NCBI GenBank assembly: GCA_001464165.1
Contig: LNEX01000268.1
Location: 1 to 20,349 of the forward strand
DNA length: 20,349 nucleotides
From: a bacterium Ga0077546
GTDB lineage: Bacteria; Cyanobacteriota; Vampirovibrionia; Obscuribacterales; Obscuribacteraceae
Direction of reading: 5' to 3'
Position numbers and translations under genes: made by a program. The notes beneath the pieces are model-generated. The model was given only the letters and a program-made list of their open reading frames with translations. It did no database searches and had not been told where the DNA came from. This document shows, piece after piece, positions 7,569 through 18,727 of this stretch. Every line of letters begins with the position of its first letter. The stretch's first letter is position 1.

Positions 7569-8148
7569 CTATCGAGTGGCTTGTACTAGCGCTTGCCAAG
7601 CCGGGTGCAGCTCGATCTGACGCAGAGACTGGTGCAAAAGTGAAACTCCCGGCTCCTTCTTAAACCATGTAGAGGCCCCTGAAGGATGAGGCAGTGGTAT
7701 CACATCACAATCTACGCCGAACAAGGTTCTTTCAAACTTCTGGCCAATTACATCAACCAACTGACATTTTCCCAAAGACTGCTCAATAGCCAATTTCCCC
7801 ACAGGAATAACTAACTGTGGCTGCAAGATTCTAAATTCGGACGCGATCCCCTCCGCTTAACGCCTTGCCAGGAAAACAGCGGCAAACAGCAGCCATATAC
7901 GCAAGCGACCGAAACTGTTCTTCACTTAAGCCGATAGTTGAGTACCATTTAAAAAGAGTCTTTCCTGCTGTCCATGCAAAAGGCTTGCCAAATGCACCTT
8001 CATGCGGACCTGGCGCCTGGCCAATCATATATACCTTGGACAAAAGCGGATGATGACTAACCACCGGACCCACCATCAATGGGCAAAGCGTGCAGCTCTT
8101 GAGAGCGGCTACGTGGTGTTCGATTGCAACCTGTGGCTTCATGGGCAC
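7569..8148 (-). pseudogene. Uracil-DNA glycosylase (family 4/5, Fe-S type), internally deleted and frameshifted
   Basis: Two minus-strand frames together make one uracil-DNA glycosylase of the COG1573 type, which removes uracil from DNA. The first part (GTG at 8148 or ATG at 8142, to 7834) has the cluster motif C-T-L-C, the catalytic-pocket motif GQAPGPHEGAFGKPF and C-R-C-F-P-G, then GGDRV followed by a TAG at 7831-7833. The second part continues one frame over with EFRIL-QPQLVIPVG, then the conserved LPHPSGAS and a normal end at 7569. Compared with family members as I remember them, about 15 residues between GDRV and EFRIL are absent, including the segment that usually supplies the last Fe-S cysteine. 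The missing length must be 2 modulo 3. Both flanks are well conserved, so the break is recent or an assembly fault. Confidence 0.8.
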
Positions 8149-10006: not shown

Positions 10007-12139
10007 TTGAGCACTCCTGAAGATCAAATTAGCGGCGAAAATAAAACAATTGTATTCACCACCCCGGCGAACACCACCCTTGAATATGCAATCGGAGATG
10101 TCGTTGGCGAAAGTTACATTTTGCTCTCACTTTTAGCTCGCGGTGGCATGGGAGTGCTCTTTAAGGCAAGACACCTCCAATTAGACCGCATTTTTGCCCT
10201 AAAGCTGTTACCCCCAAATCAAGTAAGCGAAACCAACTGGCGACGGTTTGAAATAGAAGGCCGGGCCTTGGCCAAACTGAACCATCCGAATATCGTGCAA
10301 ATTTACAATATGGGCGTCGACAAAAAAGGTTGCCCCTTCTATGTAATGGAATTGCTCGACGGGCAGTCAATGGCTGAGTATCTTGAAGAGCAGACCATGC
10401 CCCTTGAGCAATTTGTGCAGTCATTCAAAGACGTCTGTGCCGCTCTGCAGCTTACCCATAGAAAAGGAATTGTGCACCGCGATATCAAACCATCAAATCT
10501 GTTCATGCTGCAGCCTAGCTCTAGCCCTAGTTCAAATATCAGAAGCACAAAAGTTGTTGACTTTGGCATAGCTCGCTTGAATGCCAGCGAAGGACACAAC
10601 TTGCAAGGCCTAACACGACCTGGCGAAGTCTTTGGCAGTCCTGCTTATATGAGTCCAGAGCAAACAGAAGGAAAGCCAGTCACCCTAGCCTCAGATATCT
10701 ACTCCCTAGGCTGCACCATGTATGCAGCCCTAACTGGTCACGCACCGTTTAAAGGCGCGACTGCCATACAGACAATGATGGCCCATCAAACCGAGTTGGC
10801 ACCGCCAATCAATCGCCCTGATTTTAGCCGGCAGCAAAATGCTGCATGCAACGAAATAATTACTAAATGTATGGAGAAGGCTCCAGAAGATCGGCTAAGC
10901 AATGTAGAAGAGATTGCAGCATCGCTTAGTGATATGACACGAGAAAACTTATCTGCCCCCCTCGACGAGACAACAACAAATCACCTTCGAGCGCCGGCAA
11001 CGAATCAAAAAAAATGGTTGATCATTGCAGCAATTGCCACCATAAGTCTAACTGCCACTATGGTGGCAGGAACTTCAGCACTGAAATCAATTATTCTCAA
11101 ACCGAAGCACAAAAGTTTTTATCAAGATAGAGCAACAGAAGCAAACAGCTCGATGACAGATACGCTCACATCAGCGCAGATTCAAGAAGCTAGCACAAAG
11201 CTACTGCAAGAAAAGATGCCAGCCGTTTCAGATAAAATTGACTTAGAAGATTACTTCAGCAAGACCAATAAAGAGCTTTCTGAGGTAATTGAAATAGGAG
11301 GGAAGAAACATAGAGTTTTCAACTTCCCAACAAACCTGACAATCGGTAGAATTGCGCCAAATAGGACACGAGAAGAGCAGATCAAAGCCAGCAGCAGCTT
11401 AGGTAAAAGAGTGGATAAACCAGCACAAGGGAAGATACTCTGGCCTGACGCTGAACCCGTGAACTTCATAGCTGGCTTCAAAGTAAGTAAAATACCAGAA
11501 GTTTACGAGCACTTCGACGACCAAGCCATAGCTAGCCTCACGCTGAAATCCCCAGAAAGACTTCCACGCATTGAGACCCTAGCCGATTGGTCAAACCTCC
11601 AAATCCTAAATTTACAGGACTGCGCTCTTGATACGGCCTATACGAAGGGCCTAGAAAAACTGCAGCACTTAGAATCACTTACTCTTGACCATACGAAATT
11701 TGATCTAGAAGCACTAACCAGCATAAGCATGCTTACAAGACTAAGCTCTCTGCAGCTAGATTGCATCGAAGATCACTCAACAATTTTACGCTCGCTAGAA
11801 TATGTTAGAAGCCTAACTTATCTTGAACTGCGAACCTTGATCTTGAACGAAAGCAATATGATTTCGCTGACCAAACTGCACAATTTAAAACAATTAGATC
11901 TACGCTATTCAACTCTGCCAGATACAGCAATGAAAGAGCTAAGCAAGTGTCCGGCTCTACAAATCTTAGATCTAGATCGCACAATCTACAACTCTAAATC
12001 AATCTACGATCTTGCGGCAAGCAAAAGCATGCGTATTTTGTATGTGGAAAAAGATAAACCCAGTGAGCAGATATTAACAGAGTTCAAAAAACGTTGTCCA
12101 AACGTTCAGGTGATCAGAAAAGCAACCAAAAGCATTTAA
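10007..12139 (+). CDS. Hanks-type Ser/Thr protein kinase with membrane helix and LRR ectodomain
   Basis: This 710-residue receptor-like kinase starts at TTG with GAGGG six bases upstream. The kinase domain spans about 36-310, with glycine loop ARGGMGVLFKA, ATP lysine K66, catalytic H157-R-D159, D185-F-G, and activation segment ending SPEQ. All key residues are present, so it should be active. A Ser-rich linker leads to a membrane helix at about 337-358. The outer part holds a conserved patch with VFNF at 437-440 and then five or six leucine-rich repeats of about 23-25 residues to the C-terminus, a likely protein-binding surface. Domain order and the VFNF patch match the second kinase at 15730-17829, so the two are paralogues. 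The ligand and substrates are unknown. The 3' end lies 16 bases from the convergent M13 peptidase stop. A -10-like TATACT at 9950-9955 may be its promoter. Confidence 0.94.
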   Translation: MSTPEDQISGENKTIVFTTPANTTLEYAIGDVVGESYILLSLLARGGMGVLFKARHLQLDRIFALKLLPPNQVSETNWRRFEIEGRALAKLNHPNIVQIYNMGVDKKGCPFYVMELLDGQSMAEYLEEQTMPLEQFVQSFKDVCAALQLTHRKGIVHRDIKPSNLFMLQPSSSPSSNIRSTKVVDFGIARLNASEGHNLQGLTRPGEVFGSPAYMSPEQTEGKPVTLASDIYSLGCTMYAALTGHAPFKGATAIQTMMAHQTELAPPINRPDFSRQQNAACNEIITKCMEKAPEDRLSNVEEIAASLSDMTRENLSAPLDETTTNHLRAPATNQKKWLIIAAIATISLTATMVAGTSALKSIILKPKHKSFYQDRATEANSSMTDTLTSAQIQEASTKLLQEKMPAVSDKIDLEDYFSKTNKELSEVIEIGGKKHRVFNFPTNLTIGRIAPNRTREEQIKASSSLGKRVDKPAQGKILWPDAEPVNFIAGFKVSKIPEVYEHFDDQAIASLTLKSPERLPRIETLADWSNLQILNLQDCALDTAYTKGLEKLQHLESLTLDHTKFDLEALTSISMLTRLSSLQLDCIEDHSTILRSLEYVRSLTYLELRTLILNESNMISLTKLHNLKQLDLRYSTLPDTAMKELSKCPALQILDLDRTIYNSKSIYDLAASKSMRILYVEKDKPSEQILTEFKKRCPNVQVIRKATKSI

Positions 12140-14294: not shown

Positions 14295-14363
14295 GAAGAT
14301 TATTTCGGCCCTTCTTCATTTCACCATTTATCATAGGTTCGAATCGTTAGAACTGGAGGTTTT

Positions 14364-15086
14364 ATGCACCCCGCAAGCAAGATGAAAGCCCGCAAAAGCG
14401 AACCGAAACTGTACGTTCTGCTTTCGCTGGGCATAATGCTCCTTCAATTTAGCCCAATTGCCCCAGTTAATCTAATTGTTAGCCCAGCATTGGCCGCCCC
14501 TTCTTACGCGGAGGCCGAAAGCGATTACAAAAACGGCAAGTATGCCCAGGCTCTAGCTTCGTTTCAGAGCTTAAGTGCAGCCTACCCAAGCAATGTTCTC
14601 GTGCACTACTACCTGGCTCTCTGTCACCAGAACCTCGGCCACATGGGCCAAGCCAAAGCTGAGTACCAGTTAGTGGTTAATAGCAGACAGCCACAACTCG
14701 CGCCTCTGGCAGCGAAAGGCCTCGCGACCCTTGCTGGTGCACGCTCTGGTTCCGGTTCACCTAGCAGTTATAGCCCCTCAAGTAGTGACACAGGGGTCAA
14801 GGTGGCAACGGCCAAAGTGAAAAAGGTGCTCGAATTCTGGGCCGAGTGGTGAGGGCCTTGTAAAACATTTGCGCCCGTGTTTGGCGCAACCAAGTCTAAG
14901 TTTTCAGATATTCGATTCGAAGAGCTCAATGTAGATGATAGTTCGAGCAAAGAACTATCAGCCAAATATGGTGTCAGCGGCATACCTTGCGTGGTCTTCT
15001 TAGACGGCTCCGGTAACGTACTCTTCAAGGGCGGCCCAAGCAGAACCATAGAAGGGTTTAGCGCACAGATACAACAATTTCGCTAA
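14364..15086 (+). CDS. Putative selenoprotein: exported TPR-thioredoxin with U-G-P-C active site (in-frame TGA at 14850-14852)
   Basis: ATG 14364 follows a strong GGAGG five bases upstream. The frame runs 162 codons to a TGA, then 77 more codons to TAA, 240 residues in all if TGA is read as selenocysteine. Residues 16-45 form a hydrophobic signal or anchor ending ALA-AP; about 47-110 hold one or two TPR-like repeats; about 125-150 are a Ser/Gly-rich linker; 151-240 are a thioredoxin fold. The active site reads FWAEW-163-GPCK, where residue 163 is normally the attacking Cys and here is TGA. C166, LNVDD and the cis-Pro P208 (GIP) are conserved; residue 209 after the cis-Pro is Cys instead of the usual Thr. 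A SECIS-like hairpin follows the TGA. Bacterial Sec insertion at thioredoxin-fold active sites is known; this particular fusion I do not recall. The alternative is a Cys-to-stop mutation or base error. A thiol-disulphide redox role outside the cytoplasm is inferred. Confidence 0.78.
14857..14894 (+). promoter_or_regulatory. Bacterial SECIS-like hairpin downstream of the in-frame TGA
   Basis: The upper stem is a perfect 7 bp, TTGCGCC (14869-14875) with GGCGCAA (14883-14889), closing a seven-base loop CGTGTTT with G at the second loop position. A lower four-bp stem, CTTG (14857-14860) with CAAG (14891-14894), is possible. From the end of TGA to the loop is 23 nt. Published bacterial SECIS models call for a stem-loop just downstream of UGA, a small apical loop and a G among its first two bases, and this fits. 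Confidence 0.65.
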
Positions 15087-15199: not shown

Positions 15200-15733
15200 G
15201 TGAGCAAAAACGTTAAAGTCAGAGAACAAGTAGTGGCACCAATCACGACACCAAATAAGGTGCCCGTTCTAGATTCAAATATAATCGCAAGTCAAAATTT
15301 GAAACATGGCACCCCAAGCAAAATCGTCAAAGCAAAAGAAACAATGAGCTTCGTCGCCACTACCATACCAGTGTTAGGCTTTGTCGGCACTTTAGCAGTT
15401 TGGGCCGCAACAAATTACTATGTTGGCGACGTTGTAGTAGAAACCAGCAAACCATTCACGACACTCACAGTTAAAGCTTTCGATAAAAAAGGTCAAGAAT
15501 CAACCTTTCACACTCCCCGCTTTCAACTCATGCCCGGCAGCTACCACTTAGAAATTCAAGCAGATAACTTCAAGCCTCAACACGCAGACGCTGAAGTGGT
15601 CTTTCAAAAAATAGCAACTGTGCCCGTTTCAATTACAGAAGAAAACAGCGCAGCAAGTAATCAGGCTGAAGATTCGACTAACAGCCAAAAGAAACGTCAC
15701 TGGTGGCAACTCTGGCGACGTTCTGAAAATTGA
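15200..15733 (+). CDS. Membrane-anchored PEGA-like protein, coupled to downstream kinase
   Basis: This 177-residue protein starts at GTG with only a weak ribosome site. Residues 1-47 are a polar, probably cytoplasmic tail. About 48-70 is a membrane helix (VATTIPVLGFVGTLAVWAA). About 75-145 is a beta-rich region with the layout of a PEGA domain, including the hallmark LMPGSYHLEIQADNFKP (the PG-Y-x-L pattern and a following aromatic turn). The C-terminus is charged and Trp-rich (KKRHWWQLWRR). PEGA domains are commonly fused to or encoded beside bacterial Ser/Thr kinases and face the outside of the membrane. Its TGA stop overlaps the TTG start of the kinase at 15730 (TTGA), implying translational coupling and a joint function, perhaps as a sensor or wall-contact subunit (inference). 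Confidence 0.75.
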   Translation: MSKNVKVREQVVAPITTPNKVPVLDSNIIASQNLKHGTPSKIVKAKETMSFVATTIPVLGFVGTLAVWAATNYYVGDVVVETSKPFTTLTVKAFDKKGQESTFHTPRFQLMPGSYHLEIQADNFKPQHADAEVVFQKIATVPVSITEENSAASNQAEDSTNSQKKRHWWQLWRRSEN

Positions 15734-17829
15734 GCGAGAAATTCAAGACAGGCTCATTGATTGCCGGCACGTATAGAGTCTTGGACTTTATTGGCGAAGG
15801 AGCAATGGGTTACGTATACAAAGTCGAGCATACCCTTCTCAATAAAACGCTAGCCTTCAAAGTCTTAAAAACAGAATCTCTTTCTGAAGCAATCTGGAAG
15901 CGCTTTCGCCTTGAGGGCCAAGCAATTGCTCGCCTTGATCACGTTAACATTGTCAAAATTTACGATATGAGCCAAACAGAAGATGGTCTGCCATTCTTCA
16001 CAATGGATCTACTTATTGGTCAATCGCTAGATGACTATCTTCAAGATTACGGAAGACTTTCAGTAGAAGAGGCCTTACCAATCTTTCGACAAGTTTGCGC
16101 TGGCCTTGCTTATGCAAACGATCACGGCATAATTCACCGTGATATCAAGCCTGGCAATATCATGTTGATTGATAGTAACGATGGATCAATAAGCAAGTGC
16201 ACAGTAAAGATTGTCGACTTCGGTATCGCTAAACTAGTCGATGATGGCAACACCTCCCAACAGGGTTTAACTAGGCCTGGTGAAGTTTTCGGCAGCCCGC
16301 TCTATATGAGCCCAGAACAGTGCATGGGGGCAAAGCTAGACCAACGCACCGACATGTACTCAGTTGGCGTCACTATGTTTCAGGCTCTAACAGGCAGGCC
16401 ACCACTTTTAGGAAAATCAGCGGTAGAAACAGCGGCTCTGCACCAAAGCCAAGAGCCGCCAATGCTTTGCGATGTAGCTAAAGATGTCGATTTCCCCATC
16501 GAACTCGAAGAAATAATTGCCACTATGTTGGCCAAGTCACCAGATGATCGTTATTCATCGCTAGCTGAGGTGGCTAACCTACTGTTGCAAATTGAAAAAG
16601 GCGAACACATTACTAGACCTAGCACCAGAGTAAGGGCGGAAAACCCAGCTGTTAGCCAGTCTTTACGGCAGTCACGCAATGAACAAGCAGGTGAACAAGA
16701 AGATCCACAAAAAGAGACTAACGAACAAAAGCAGCAAATTACAAAGTGGCAGATCTGGCTGATGGCATCGCTGACCATTATTTCACTGGCTACAGCACTT
16801 TTTCTAGCAGGCGTAAATATTTCACTGTTGTGGCAACAAAAAGACGTCTCAAAGCCTGCAATAAAACACCCCAAAACAGTAGCAACAGTAGACCAAGTAG
16901 ATTCACTAACGAATCTAGACTACGGTTTTGACGAAACTAAACTCAGCCCTAAAGATAGACAAGAGATAGAAGCTTTTAAAAAGGCAAAAACCGGCACCTA
17001 TACACGAATTACTAGAAAAAATGGCCAACCAATTAAAGTCTTCAACTTTTCAGAAAAATTCTCACTGGGAACTATCTCGTGGTCAACTAGAAAAGAACAA
17101 GGACAATTTTTTGCTCGCGGCACCAAAGAAATGCCTCTACTTAAAGGCGTAAAGCTTGACTCGGATCTCGCAATTCAAACCTATCCTGAACTGCTAACCA
17201 AATTTCGCCCGAACGATATTAATTGGTTAGTGATAGATGGTGTCAGACCACGAAACCCTTTGCTAGCAAAGAGCATCGTTCATCTATCTTCGCTGAACTA
17301 CCTTGAAATTAAAAACTCTGAAATAAACAATGCCGATCTAAAAACCCTAGAGCAACTCAAAAACTTGTCGTCGCTAAAGCTGAGTGGAACTAATCTAAAG
17401 GGCAGCGACTTAGCGCAGAGTAACCTGCTTAAGCAACTCGTGTTGATTCAAATTGAATCAATGAAAGAGCCATCACCTTTACTAGAATCACTACTGAAAC
17501 AAAACCGCCTTGACAATCTTGACATTAGGCACATGGTGCTGCAGCGAAAAGACTTTGTCACGATCTCGAAAATGTCGACCCTGCACCTTCTTACCATTAA
17601 GAGCACCAATGTCACTGACTTAGATTTGGAAGCCTTGACCAAGCTGACCAACTTAACGCAGCTAAATGTAGACTGCAGTAGCAAACTAACCATTCAATCT
17701 ATAGCTACCATTAGCAAATTCACAAAATTGAAAAACCTCATACTGCCAATTCATCTAAGAAATCAGCCAAACGAAAGCAAATTAAAAGAGCTGCTACCAA
17801 ATCTGACGATAAAAAACCCTGAAGACTAG
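15730..17829 (+). CDS. Hanks-type Ser/Thr protein kinase with membrane helix and LRR ectodomain (second copy)
   Basis: This 699-residue paralogue of the kinase at 10007-12139 has its TTG start inside the stop codon of the PEGA-like gene. The kinase domain covers about 12-290: glycine loop GEGAMGYVYK, ATP lysine K44, H136-R-D138, D163-F-G and SPEQ in the activation segment, all intact. A Gln/Glu-rich linker leads to a membrane helix at about 342-366. The outer part begins with a patch holding VFNF at 437-440, the same residue numbers as in the first copy, followed by leucine-rich repeats (NYLEIKNSEI, SSLKLSGTNL, HLLTIKSTNV) to the end. It is likely a receptor that senses an extracytoplasmic protein or wall ligand and phosphorylates cytoplasmic targets. 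The exonuclease gene follows after 28 bases and could be cotranscribed. Confidence 0.94.
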   Translation: MSEKFKTGSLIAGTYRVLDFIGEGAMGYVYKVEHTLLNKTLAFKVLKTESLSEAIWKRFRLEGQAIARLDHVNIVKIYDMSQTEDGLPFFTMDLLIGQSLDDYLQDYGRLSVEEALPIFRQVCAGLAYANDHGIIHRDIKPGNIMLIDSNDGSISKCTVKIVDFGIAKLVDDGNTSQQGLTRPGEVFGSPLYMSPEQCMGAKLDQRTDMYSVGVTMFQALTGRPPLLGKSAVETAALHQSQEPPMLCDVAKDVDFPIELEEIIATMLAKSPDDRYSSLAEVANLLLQIEKGEHITRPSTRVRAENPAVSQSLRQSRNEQAGEQEDPQKETNEQKQQITKWQIWLMASLTIISLATALFLAGVNISLLWQQKDVSKPAIKHPKTVATVDQVDSLTNLDYGFDETKLSPKDRQEIEAFKKAKTGTYTRITRKNGQPIKVFNFSEKFSLGTISWSTRKEQGQFFARGTKEMPLLKGVKLDSDLAIQTYPELLTKFRPNDINWLVIDGVRPRNPLLAKSIVHLSSLNYLEIKNSEINNADLKTLEQLKNLSSLKLSGTNLKGSDLAQSNLLKQLVLIQIESMKEPSPLLESLLKQNRLDNLDIRHMVLQRKDFVTISKMSTLHLLTIKSTNVTDLDLEALTKLTNLTQLNVDCSSKLTIQSIATISKFTKLKNLILPIHLRNQPNESKLKELLPNLTIKNPED

Positions 17830-17857: not shown

Positions 17858-18727
17858 TTGGATATATATTTAGTTGATGGCACCTACGAGCTCTATCGGC
17901 ACTTCTATGCCCTACCTGAAGCAACAGACGATCAGGGCCAAGAGATTGCCGCCGCAAGAGGTGTTGTCAACTCGTGCTTGACCATGTTAGAGCACGGAGC
18001 TACTCATCTCGGAGTGGCCACAGATCATGTAATCGAATCTTTCCGCAATGATCTCTATGATGGCTACAAAACTGGTGACGGCGTGCCACCAGAGATAATG
18101 TCACAAATTGCACTCGTATAAGAAGCACTAGGAGTGCTCGTTTGGCCGATGGTTGAGTTTGAAGCCGATGATGCCCTAGCGGCAGCTGCCGTCAAAGCAG
18201 CCGCCCGAGAAGACGTCAATCAAGTATTGATATGCACCCCAGACAAAGACTTATGCCAATGTGTCAGGGGCTCAAAAATAGTGCAACTAGATCGTCGGCG
18301 AGACAATGCTATTCGCAACGAAGAAGGCGTACTAGAAAAGTTTGGAGTCAAACCTCAATCAATTCCTGACTATCTAGCCTTAGTTGGGGATACAGCTGAC
18401 GGTTACCCAGGTCTGGCTGGTTGGGGAGAAAAGGGAGCTGCCACCATACTTTCTCACTATCATCATTTAGAAAACATCCCTAAAGACTTCTCGACGTGGC
18501 CAACGCTTCGGGGTGCTGCCAAACTCGCAACCACTCTATTTGCCCAATGGAATGATGCACTCTTGTATCGCGATCTGGCGACCCTAAGACTTGATGTACC
18601 GGTCTTTGACGATATAGATGAGCTAAAATGGCAAGGCCCAACAGACAGGTTTGAAGCTGTTTGCGAGCGACTAAAAGCCAAAAATACATTCAAACGAGTA
18701 CAGAAATTAATCTCTCATAAATTCTGA
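17858..18727 (+). pseudogene. 5'-3' exonuclease (FEN/PIN-like, H3TH) interrupted by in-frame TAA
   Basis: This is a stand-alone 5'-3' exonuclease of the type related to the N-terminal domain of DNA polymerase I; 290 codons including the normal stop is a usual size. It starts at TTG with GGAGG six bases upstream. Metal-site motifs are seen on both sides of the break: D7 in YLVDGTY, D104/D105 in FEADD, D129/D131 in TPDKD, and the helix-hairpin motif GDTADGYPG with D178 and D181. Codon 88 is TAA (18119-18121), where relatives usually have Glu in a sequence like L-x-E-E-A-L-x-x-LGV. The frame resumes at once with EALGVLVWPM, so one base change explains it. The first 87 residues alone would be inactive. 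A recent nonsense mutation or sequence error is the simplest reading; nothing suggests programmed recoding at TAA. Confidence 0.8.

Follow-up and report, generated by a model that had tools for sequence, protein, structure and literature searches.

Introduction

Thioredoxins in which selenocysteine (Sec) is the first residue of the CxxC motif (UxxC) are a known selenoprotein family and appear in the selenoprotein tables of two surveys (PMC9312934; PMC13188914). The Sec trait, for which selB together with selC has been given as the signature (PMC1273633), was not detected in Cyanobacteria according to one paper (PMC1794560), and in another these bacteria appeared to lack Sec (PMC9312934). A single Sec-containing protein, PWT95605.1, is noted for ‘Candidatus melainabacteria’ in PMC9529120 and may point to the same Sec trait as described below. 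The word ‘tetratricopeptide’ is absent from the main text of PMC13188914, and ‘TPR’ from that of PMC9312934. A search of the open-licence literature found no paper on selenocysteine in Obscuribacter or Obscuribacterales, or on a selenoprotein in Vampirovibrionia, and the titles and first lines of the abstracts of the open-licence Melainabacteria papers pointed to none on a TPR-thioredoxin selenoprotein family.

The gene described here lies in a window (the whole stretch of DNA analyzed, 20,349 nt) and shares with the Sec-containing thioredoxins the PF00085 domain and the position of Sec as the first residue of the CxxC motif. It is set apart from them, as far as their descriptions go, by what precedes this domain, namely a putative export signal followed by TPR repeats and a flexible linker. 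TPR repeats are likewise joined to a thioredoxin domain in the ‘putative thioredoxin’ proteins found among the matches P0039-P0051, which we take to be of the CnoX/YbbN kind. In CnoX/YbbN the thioredoxin domain comes first; the window protein differs in having it last, in looking exported and in its U-G-P-C active site. The C-terminal part of the selenoprotein TsoB (NF045694) also matches the thioredoxin domain of the window, but over positions 444-548 of 572 and with a score of just 33.6 bits, where the cut-off is 805. Other counterparts are the TPR-thioredoxins of the same order that carry Cys instead of Sec; they have the same architecture and are sometimes tandem neighbors of the Sec form. 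Hence, of the candidate ‘new selenoprotein’ of the preliminary description of this DNA, the novelty lies in the lineage and in a subfamily that is fused to TPR repeats and looks exported; the UxxC thioredoxin and its chemistry were already known.

Results

A TPR-thioredoxin gene with TGA at the active-site codon

The translation of the gene (Table 1) reads KVKKVLEFWAEW, the TGA, GPCKTFAPVF and, further on, LNVDD, GIPCVVFLDG and QIQQFR, followed by the terminal TAA. The TGA at codon 163 was the one stop inside the 240-codon frame and, being placed between KVLEFWAEW and the GPC of the motif, it occupies the first Cys of W-C-G-P-C, just as had been described. The continuation of the frame, with LNVDD and C166, to a normal stop also held: when TGA was translated as U, the read-through product matched in Pfam both TPR families and, over residues 146-219, the Thioredoxin family PF00085. 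Since TGA was the ordinary terminator in 4 of the 12 window frames checked, the genetic code as a whole is unchanged.

The conserved TGA, the hairpin that follows it, the selection acting beyond it and the sel machinery of the relatives, all presented below, lead us to conclude from sequence that this gene is very probably a genuine selenoprotein gene, with a U-G-P-C active site, decoding by SelB and the hairpin, and a product predicted to be exported.

Table 1. Features of the TPR-thioredoxin locus, in positions of the 20,349-nt window
Feature	Position	Strand	Description and basis
GGAGG ribosome-binding-like site	14355..14359	+	four bases upstream of the ATG; direct sequence reading
TPR-thioredoxin gene, very probably a selenoprotein gene	14364..15086	+	ATG to TAA, 240 residues including the predicted Sec163; translation, Pfam, homologues
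N-terminal export signal (putative)	14364..14495	+	hydrophobic stretch after a basic start, with a cleavage-like A-L-A (residues 42-44); by eye
TPR helices	14505..14744	+	residues 48-127; Pfam TPR, five helices, pLDDT mostly >90
Ser-rich flexible linker	14745..14819	+	residues 130-148, pLDDT <50
Thioredoxin domain, predicted active site U163-G-P-C166	14820..15083	+	PF00085 4.8e-16; best Foldseek matches thioredoxins
TGA, very probably read as selenocysteine	14850..14852	+	same codon in the window and at least 25 homologous genes
SECIS-like hairpin	14869..14889	+	stem 14869-14875 with 14883-14889, loop CGUGUUU 14876-14882

Conservation of the TGA and of the frame beyond it

The search covered 53 genomes from a single order, that of G001, the genome of locus L001; we take this order to be Obscuribacterales and guess that it is not photosynthetic. 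A scan of contigs gave four orthologous loci (L001-L004) with the TGA at this codon and the frame open beyond it, of which L003 is from ‘Cyanobacteria bacterium SZAS LIN-3’, a member of the unclassified Cyanobacteriota according to NCBI. Across the order, a TGA at the equivalent of codon 163, with no other stop, was present in at least 25 genes from at least 24 of the 53 genomes, the latter being a lower bound taken from the best matches listed; together with the window, 26 TGA genes were compared, and none of them had a stop elsewhere. Among the single-TGA matches listed, 25 of 26 had the TGA at the active-site codon, and the exception (G021:C32) failed a filter that required TGA, then two codons, then Cys. 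In none of the 25 homologous genes was the TGA replaced by TAA or TAG. The second Cys of the motif was kept in 26 of 26 genes; the filter required it for part of this set, and the translation of 20 TGA loci, read on the right strand, did not. The earlier argument that a random stop would hardly fall on this residue is thus borne out by its recurrence at the same codon. Three weaker stop-bearing matches in the order, with 30-35% identity (G012:C58 with TGA and TAA, G008:C10 with TAG and TAA, and the aforementioned G021:C32 with TGA), are, judging from their sequences, not the TPR-thioredoxin gene under study.

When the read-through product was used as the query of a protein search, 50 matches were obtained. 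As many as 26 of them, 146-173 residues long, stop right before the TGA position and end in W (FWAEW, FWATW, FYADW, FWASW); for most of these the protein alone was seen, as was the case for P0003, a protein from another assembly with 99% identity to the window product. The contigs bearing L001, L003 and L004 agree in length with those given for P0006, P0029 and P0021. Cys occupied the position in seven full-length proteins, W in one (P0002, also full length, in which the W is probably due to a gene call under code 4), and 16 were more general thioredoxins and disulfide isomerases. In the alignment of homologues the column therefore held TGA or Cys, as expected for Sec, and an in-frame UGA aligned with the Cys of homologues is a mark of bacterial selenoproteins. 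The annotation of the family is corrected by this result, the databases listing a conserved client gene of the Sec machinery as a truncated TPR protein in 26 of the 50 matches. Fourteen Cys homologues, unbroken through the TGA position, were used as controls; they were obtained with a pattern requiring Cys, run on 22 loci, and are a subset of the Cys homologues.

Selection on the thioredoxin half was estimated from ten gene pairs. The dN/dS ratio beyond the TGA was 0.08-0.14 in eight of them (0.13 for the window and G001); in the other two, the genes of G012/G013 differed in length and were not aligned past the gap, so that their dN/dS was dropped, and dS was saturated in G037/G038. These low values indicate that the half after the TGA is, on the evidence of its substitutions, a translated and constrained protein.

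An error of sequencing or assembly, or a decaying gene, in which TGA has been mistaken for a Cys codon, would find some backing in two other genes of the window that are broken where those of relatives are open. Against it stand the same TGA in at least 25 genes of at least 24 other genomes, the low dN/dS beyond it in eight of ten pairs and the 26 short protein clusters that end there, most of them seen as protein only. The probability that we assign to this explanation for the window is negligible, and for the TPR-thioredoxin family it is refuted.

The TGA could also be a functional stop, with a TPR-only protein as the product and the thioredoxin frame as a separate, re-initiated or remnant one. 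Gene callers do give exactly this TPR-only protein, and it may exist at low selenium. Nevertheless, the C-terminal frame is under selection, the Cys after the TGA is retained throughout (with the above filter acting on part of the set), TAA and TAG never replace the TGA in the 25 homologous genes and the Cys homologues run continuously through the codon, all of which makes a functional stop very improbable, leaving selenocysteine insertion as the preferred reading.

A SECIS-like hairpin downstream of the TGA

A hairpin resembling a bacterial SECIS element (bSECIS), absent from the preliminary description and added by the present analysis, follows the TGA; with the T of TGA as position 1, positions 20-26 pair with 34-40. 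The limits given for bSECIS elements in PMC13188914 are a loop of 3-9 nt having G within its first two positions, a stem of 4-16 bp, a spacing of 16-37 nt and an energy of -7.5 or lower. The hairpin of the window, with a perfect stem of 7 bp, the loop CGUGUUU, a spacing of 23 nt and -9.8 kcal/mol, falls within all of them. The same was true, with an unbroken stem, of 6 of the 26 TGA genes (window included), and 17 others, each with a single C.A mismatch, had a weaker stem that fell short of the energy limit. In the distant G020, G031 and G032, 3-4 of the seven named pairs were formed and the hairpin was shifted, with a loop CGUGU or GGUGU seen by eye at about the same place. At least six of the seven pairs were thus formed in 23 of the 26 TGA genes, whereas among the Cys-form TPR-thioredoxins this was the case in 1 of 14. 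One of these 14 (L176) lies mechanically within the bSECIS limits, at their edge. When 48 nt were folded freely with RNAfold, the named hairpin was clear in 6 of the 26 rows only.

Covariation was analyzed on 20 distinct rows of the 26, after leaving out G002, G004 and G042, duplicates over 45 nt, and the shifted G020, G031 and G032, whose addition would lower the paired percentage. Double-sided changes were observed at two pairs, from U-A to C-G in five rows and from G-C to C-G in four. The nine double-change cells, the covariation score (0.247) and the paired percentage (88.6%) were each reached by none of 500 shuffles; two further measures, the count of doubly changed pairs and that of pair types, did not exceed the shuffles, which reached them in 246 and 466 of 500, respectively. 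A shift of the partner by 1-3 columns lowered the pairing from 89% to 19-51%. At one position, 16 of these 20 rows have a C.A mismatch; the stem of most genes is therefore weaker than that of the window.

The codons of the loop region were also nearly fixed in the TGA genes, with Val as GTG in 26/26, Pro as CCC in 25/26 and Phe as TTT in 23/23, compared with 36, 24 and 37%, respectively, elsewhere in the same genes; in the Cys homologues they vary (GTG 1/5, CCC 4/12, TTT 7/9). Synonymous resampling, with the codon usage taken from outside the hairpin region, gave for the named pairs a mean z of 2.01 in the 26 TGA genes versus 0.25 in the 14 Cys genes, and for the energy -1.00 versus 0.11. Gene by gene the resampling signal was weak, 6-12% of the resamples pairing equally well in 23 genes. 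In eight gene pairs the silent differences within the 13 codons that directly follow the TGA, which hold only 9-10 silent sites per pair, were 0.00-0.11, against 0.16-0.74 in the rest of the frame (for instance 0.00 vs 0.55 in G001/G002 and 0.00 vs 0.74 in G041/G042); they were not low in G037/G038 (0.21) and G012/G013 (0.44).

Selenocysteine machinery in the order

The tRNA-Sec model (RF01852) was matched above its cut-off in 42 of the 53 genomes, with the best matches at 62-76 bits, and the seven tRNAs checked, plus four more, were tRNA-SeC with the anticodon TCA. SelA, SelB and SelD were above cut-off in 38, 40 and 45 genomes, respectively. With tRNA-Sec at this frequency, the Sec trait is widespread in an order of the Cyanobacteriota group, which extends its range beyond the lack of it reported in surveys.

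The 24 genomes with the TGA form contained tRNA-Sec in 22 cases, SelA in 20, SelB in 23 and SelD in 22. All four components were present in 18 of these genomes, three in four, two in G032 and one, SelD, in G042; incomplete bins may explain the missing components in these six. Of the remaining 29 genomes, for which no TGA form was listed, 13 had four components, six had three, three had two, two had one and five had none, and for these last five no TGA form was among the matches listed. The co-occurrence with the TGA form was significant for SelB (Fisher, p 0.003) and not for tRNA-Sec (0.09), SelA (0.13) or SelD (0.27), because tRNA-Sec also occurs in 20 of those 29 other genomes.

The sel genes and tRNA-Sec, whose presence in the same genome had been proposed as a check, were located in close relatives of the window. 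The window is collinear with L001, with 84% identity over 9.4 kb, and the genome of the latter, G001, has all four components, as do the collinear relatives G002 and G004; we infer from these relatives that the genome of the window would also carry sel genes. No tRNA gene was found in the 20,349-nt window itself.

In four genomes (G041:C1, G044:C14, G046:C39 and G048:C414), tRNA-Sec and the TGA gene share a contig, at a distance of approximately 11-18 kb, and in G041, G046 and G048 the tRNA gene is adjoined by a frame that by eye resembles a tyrosine recombinase. The genome G022, which has a normal tRNA-Sec, also contains L183 (G022:C17:124713-124808), a 100-nt tRNA-Cys(GCA) whose extra arm is long and that scores 54.9 bits with the tRNA-Sec model and that presumably resembles the selC-like tRNA-Cys genes reported earlier. 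In the wider class (382 genomes), 74 genomes beside the 42 of the order matched the tRNA-Sec model weakly, with 47.7-50.1 bits; these matches look like tRNA-Ser, as the three examined were all tRNA-Ser(TGA) by ARAGORN.

Alternatively, an altered code or a suppressor tRNA might place Cys or Trp at the TGA, without selenium. The W shown by P0002 would agree with this, were it not taken as a code-4 gene call, and so would the odd long-arm tRNA-Cys of G022, though its GCA anticodon does not read UGA. The termination at TGA of one third of the window frames checked, the tRNA-Sec with TCA, SelA, SelB and SelD of the relatives and the SECIS-like hairpin 3' of the TGA argue for selenocysteine instead and render a reading as Cys or Trp extremely unlikely.

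Protein architecture and proposed function

The structure was modeled with AlphaFold2 from 29 aligned sequences, with a mean pLDDT of 79.8. The model contains a low-confidence N-terminal helix (residues 17-26), the five TPR-type helices, the disordered linker and a thioredoxin domain at residues 153-240, in which the ten-residue means of pLDDT were 90-96. Residue 163, modeled as Cys, lies right before the helix 164-177, the place expected of the attacking residue. The best Foldseek matches extended over 86-104 columns, and, among solved structures, the best sequence matches fell inside residues 112-237 and were to thioredoxins and disulfide isomerases. A thioredoxin fold with UxxC, by which Sec-containing thioredoxins are defined, is therefore present. 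The protein reached 61.4 bits with the thioredoxin equivalog TIGR01068 of NCBIfam, whose cut-off is 96.8, and none of the 17 families listed for it in NCBIfam release 20.0 was above cut-off. As judged from its sequence, it would work like a thioredoxin while standing outside this equivalog.

According to the mechanism that we propose, SelB with Sec-tRNA(UCA) would recognize the hairpin, which begins after a spacing of 23 nt from the UGA, and selenocysteine would be inserted for the N-terminal attacking Cys of the thioredoxin active site, giving U-G-P-C. The protein, which is predicted to be exported, would use its short TPR block, probably to hold a partner or substrate or to guide the protein to it, and the selenol of Sec163, paired with Cys166, would reduce or exchange disulfides outside the cytoplasm. 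Under selenium shortage, translation would end at the UGA and yield a TPR-only product of 162 residues.

Exchange of Sec and Cys forms and other users of Sec

A tree of 40 rows needed seven changes between the Sec and Cys labels, at least two of them forced by well-supported branches, and 12 forks were open; a single origin of the Sec form was not supported by it. Given these changes, the two forms have, as read from the sequences, been interchanged. Two Sec forms stand in tandem in G008, and the Sec form adjoins stop-free copies in G041, G042, G044, G046 and G047, the copies of the first four having Cys. Such closely related Sec/Cys pairs, some of them in tandem, offer material for studying what favors the retention of selenium in the active site of a thioredoxin.

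Regarding other genes of the order, no TGA was found in SelD or in formate dehydrogenase-like genes among the matches listed, and no match reached the formate dehydrogenase cut-off. Two of the AhpC-TSA matches listed, which came from 13 of the 53 genomes, had one in-frame TGA each (G017:C4:630049-630258 and G004:C431:12095-12289) and are possible further selenoproteins. From this distribution, the TPR-thioredoxin gene may rank among the principal users of the Sec trait in the order. Taken jointly, the data could describe an unreported family of exported UxxC TPR-thioredoxins that is a main client of the Sec machinery of the order, in which Sec and Cys were swapped repeatedly, partly between tandem neighbors, and the hairpin was gained and lost together with the Sec codon; we consider the chances of this whole picture being right to be about even.

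Other genes of the window

Two further genes of the window are interrupted. The gene at 17858-18727 (+), for a 5'-3' exonuclease similar to the N-domain of PolI, has an in-frame TAA at 18119-18121 where the homologues of L001 and L002 are open, either a true lesion or an assembly error. The frame of a Uracil-DNA glycosylase-like gene at 7569-8148 (-) is broken near 7830, the copy of L001 being unbroken. The assembly or the genome is thus not flawless. Additionally, Ser/Thr protein kinase-like genes are found at 10007-12139 and 15730-17829 (+), close to the peptidase and thioredoxin genes of the window, and an additional kinase-like stretch lies directly 3' of the thioredoxin gene in L002 and L004.
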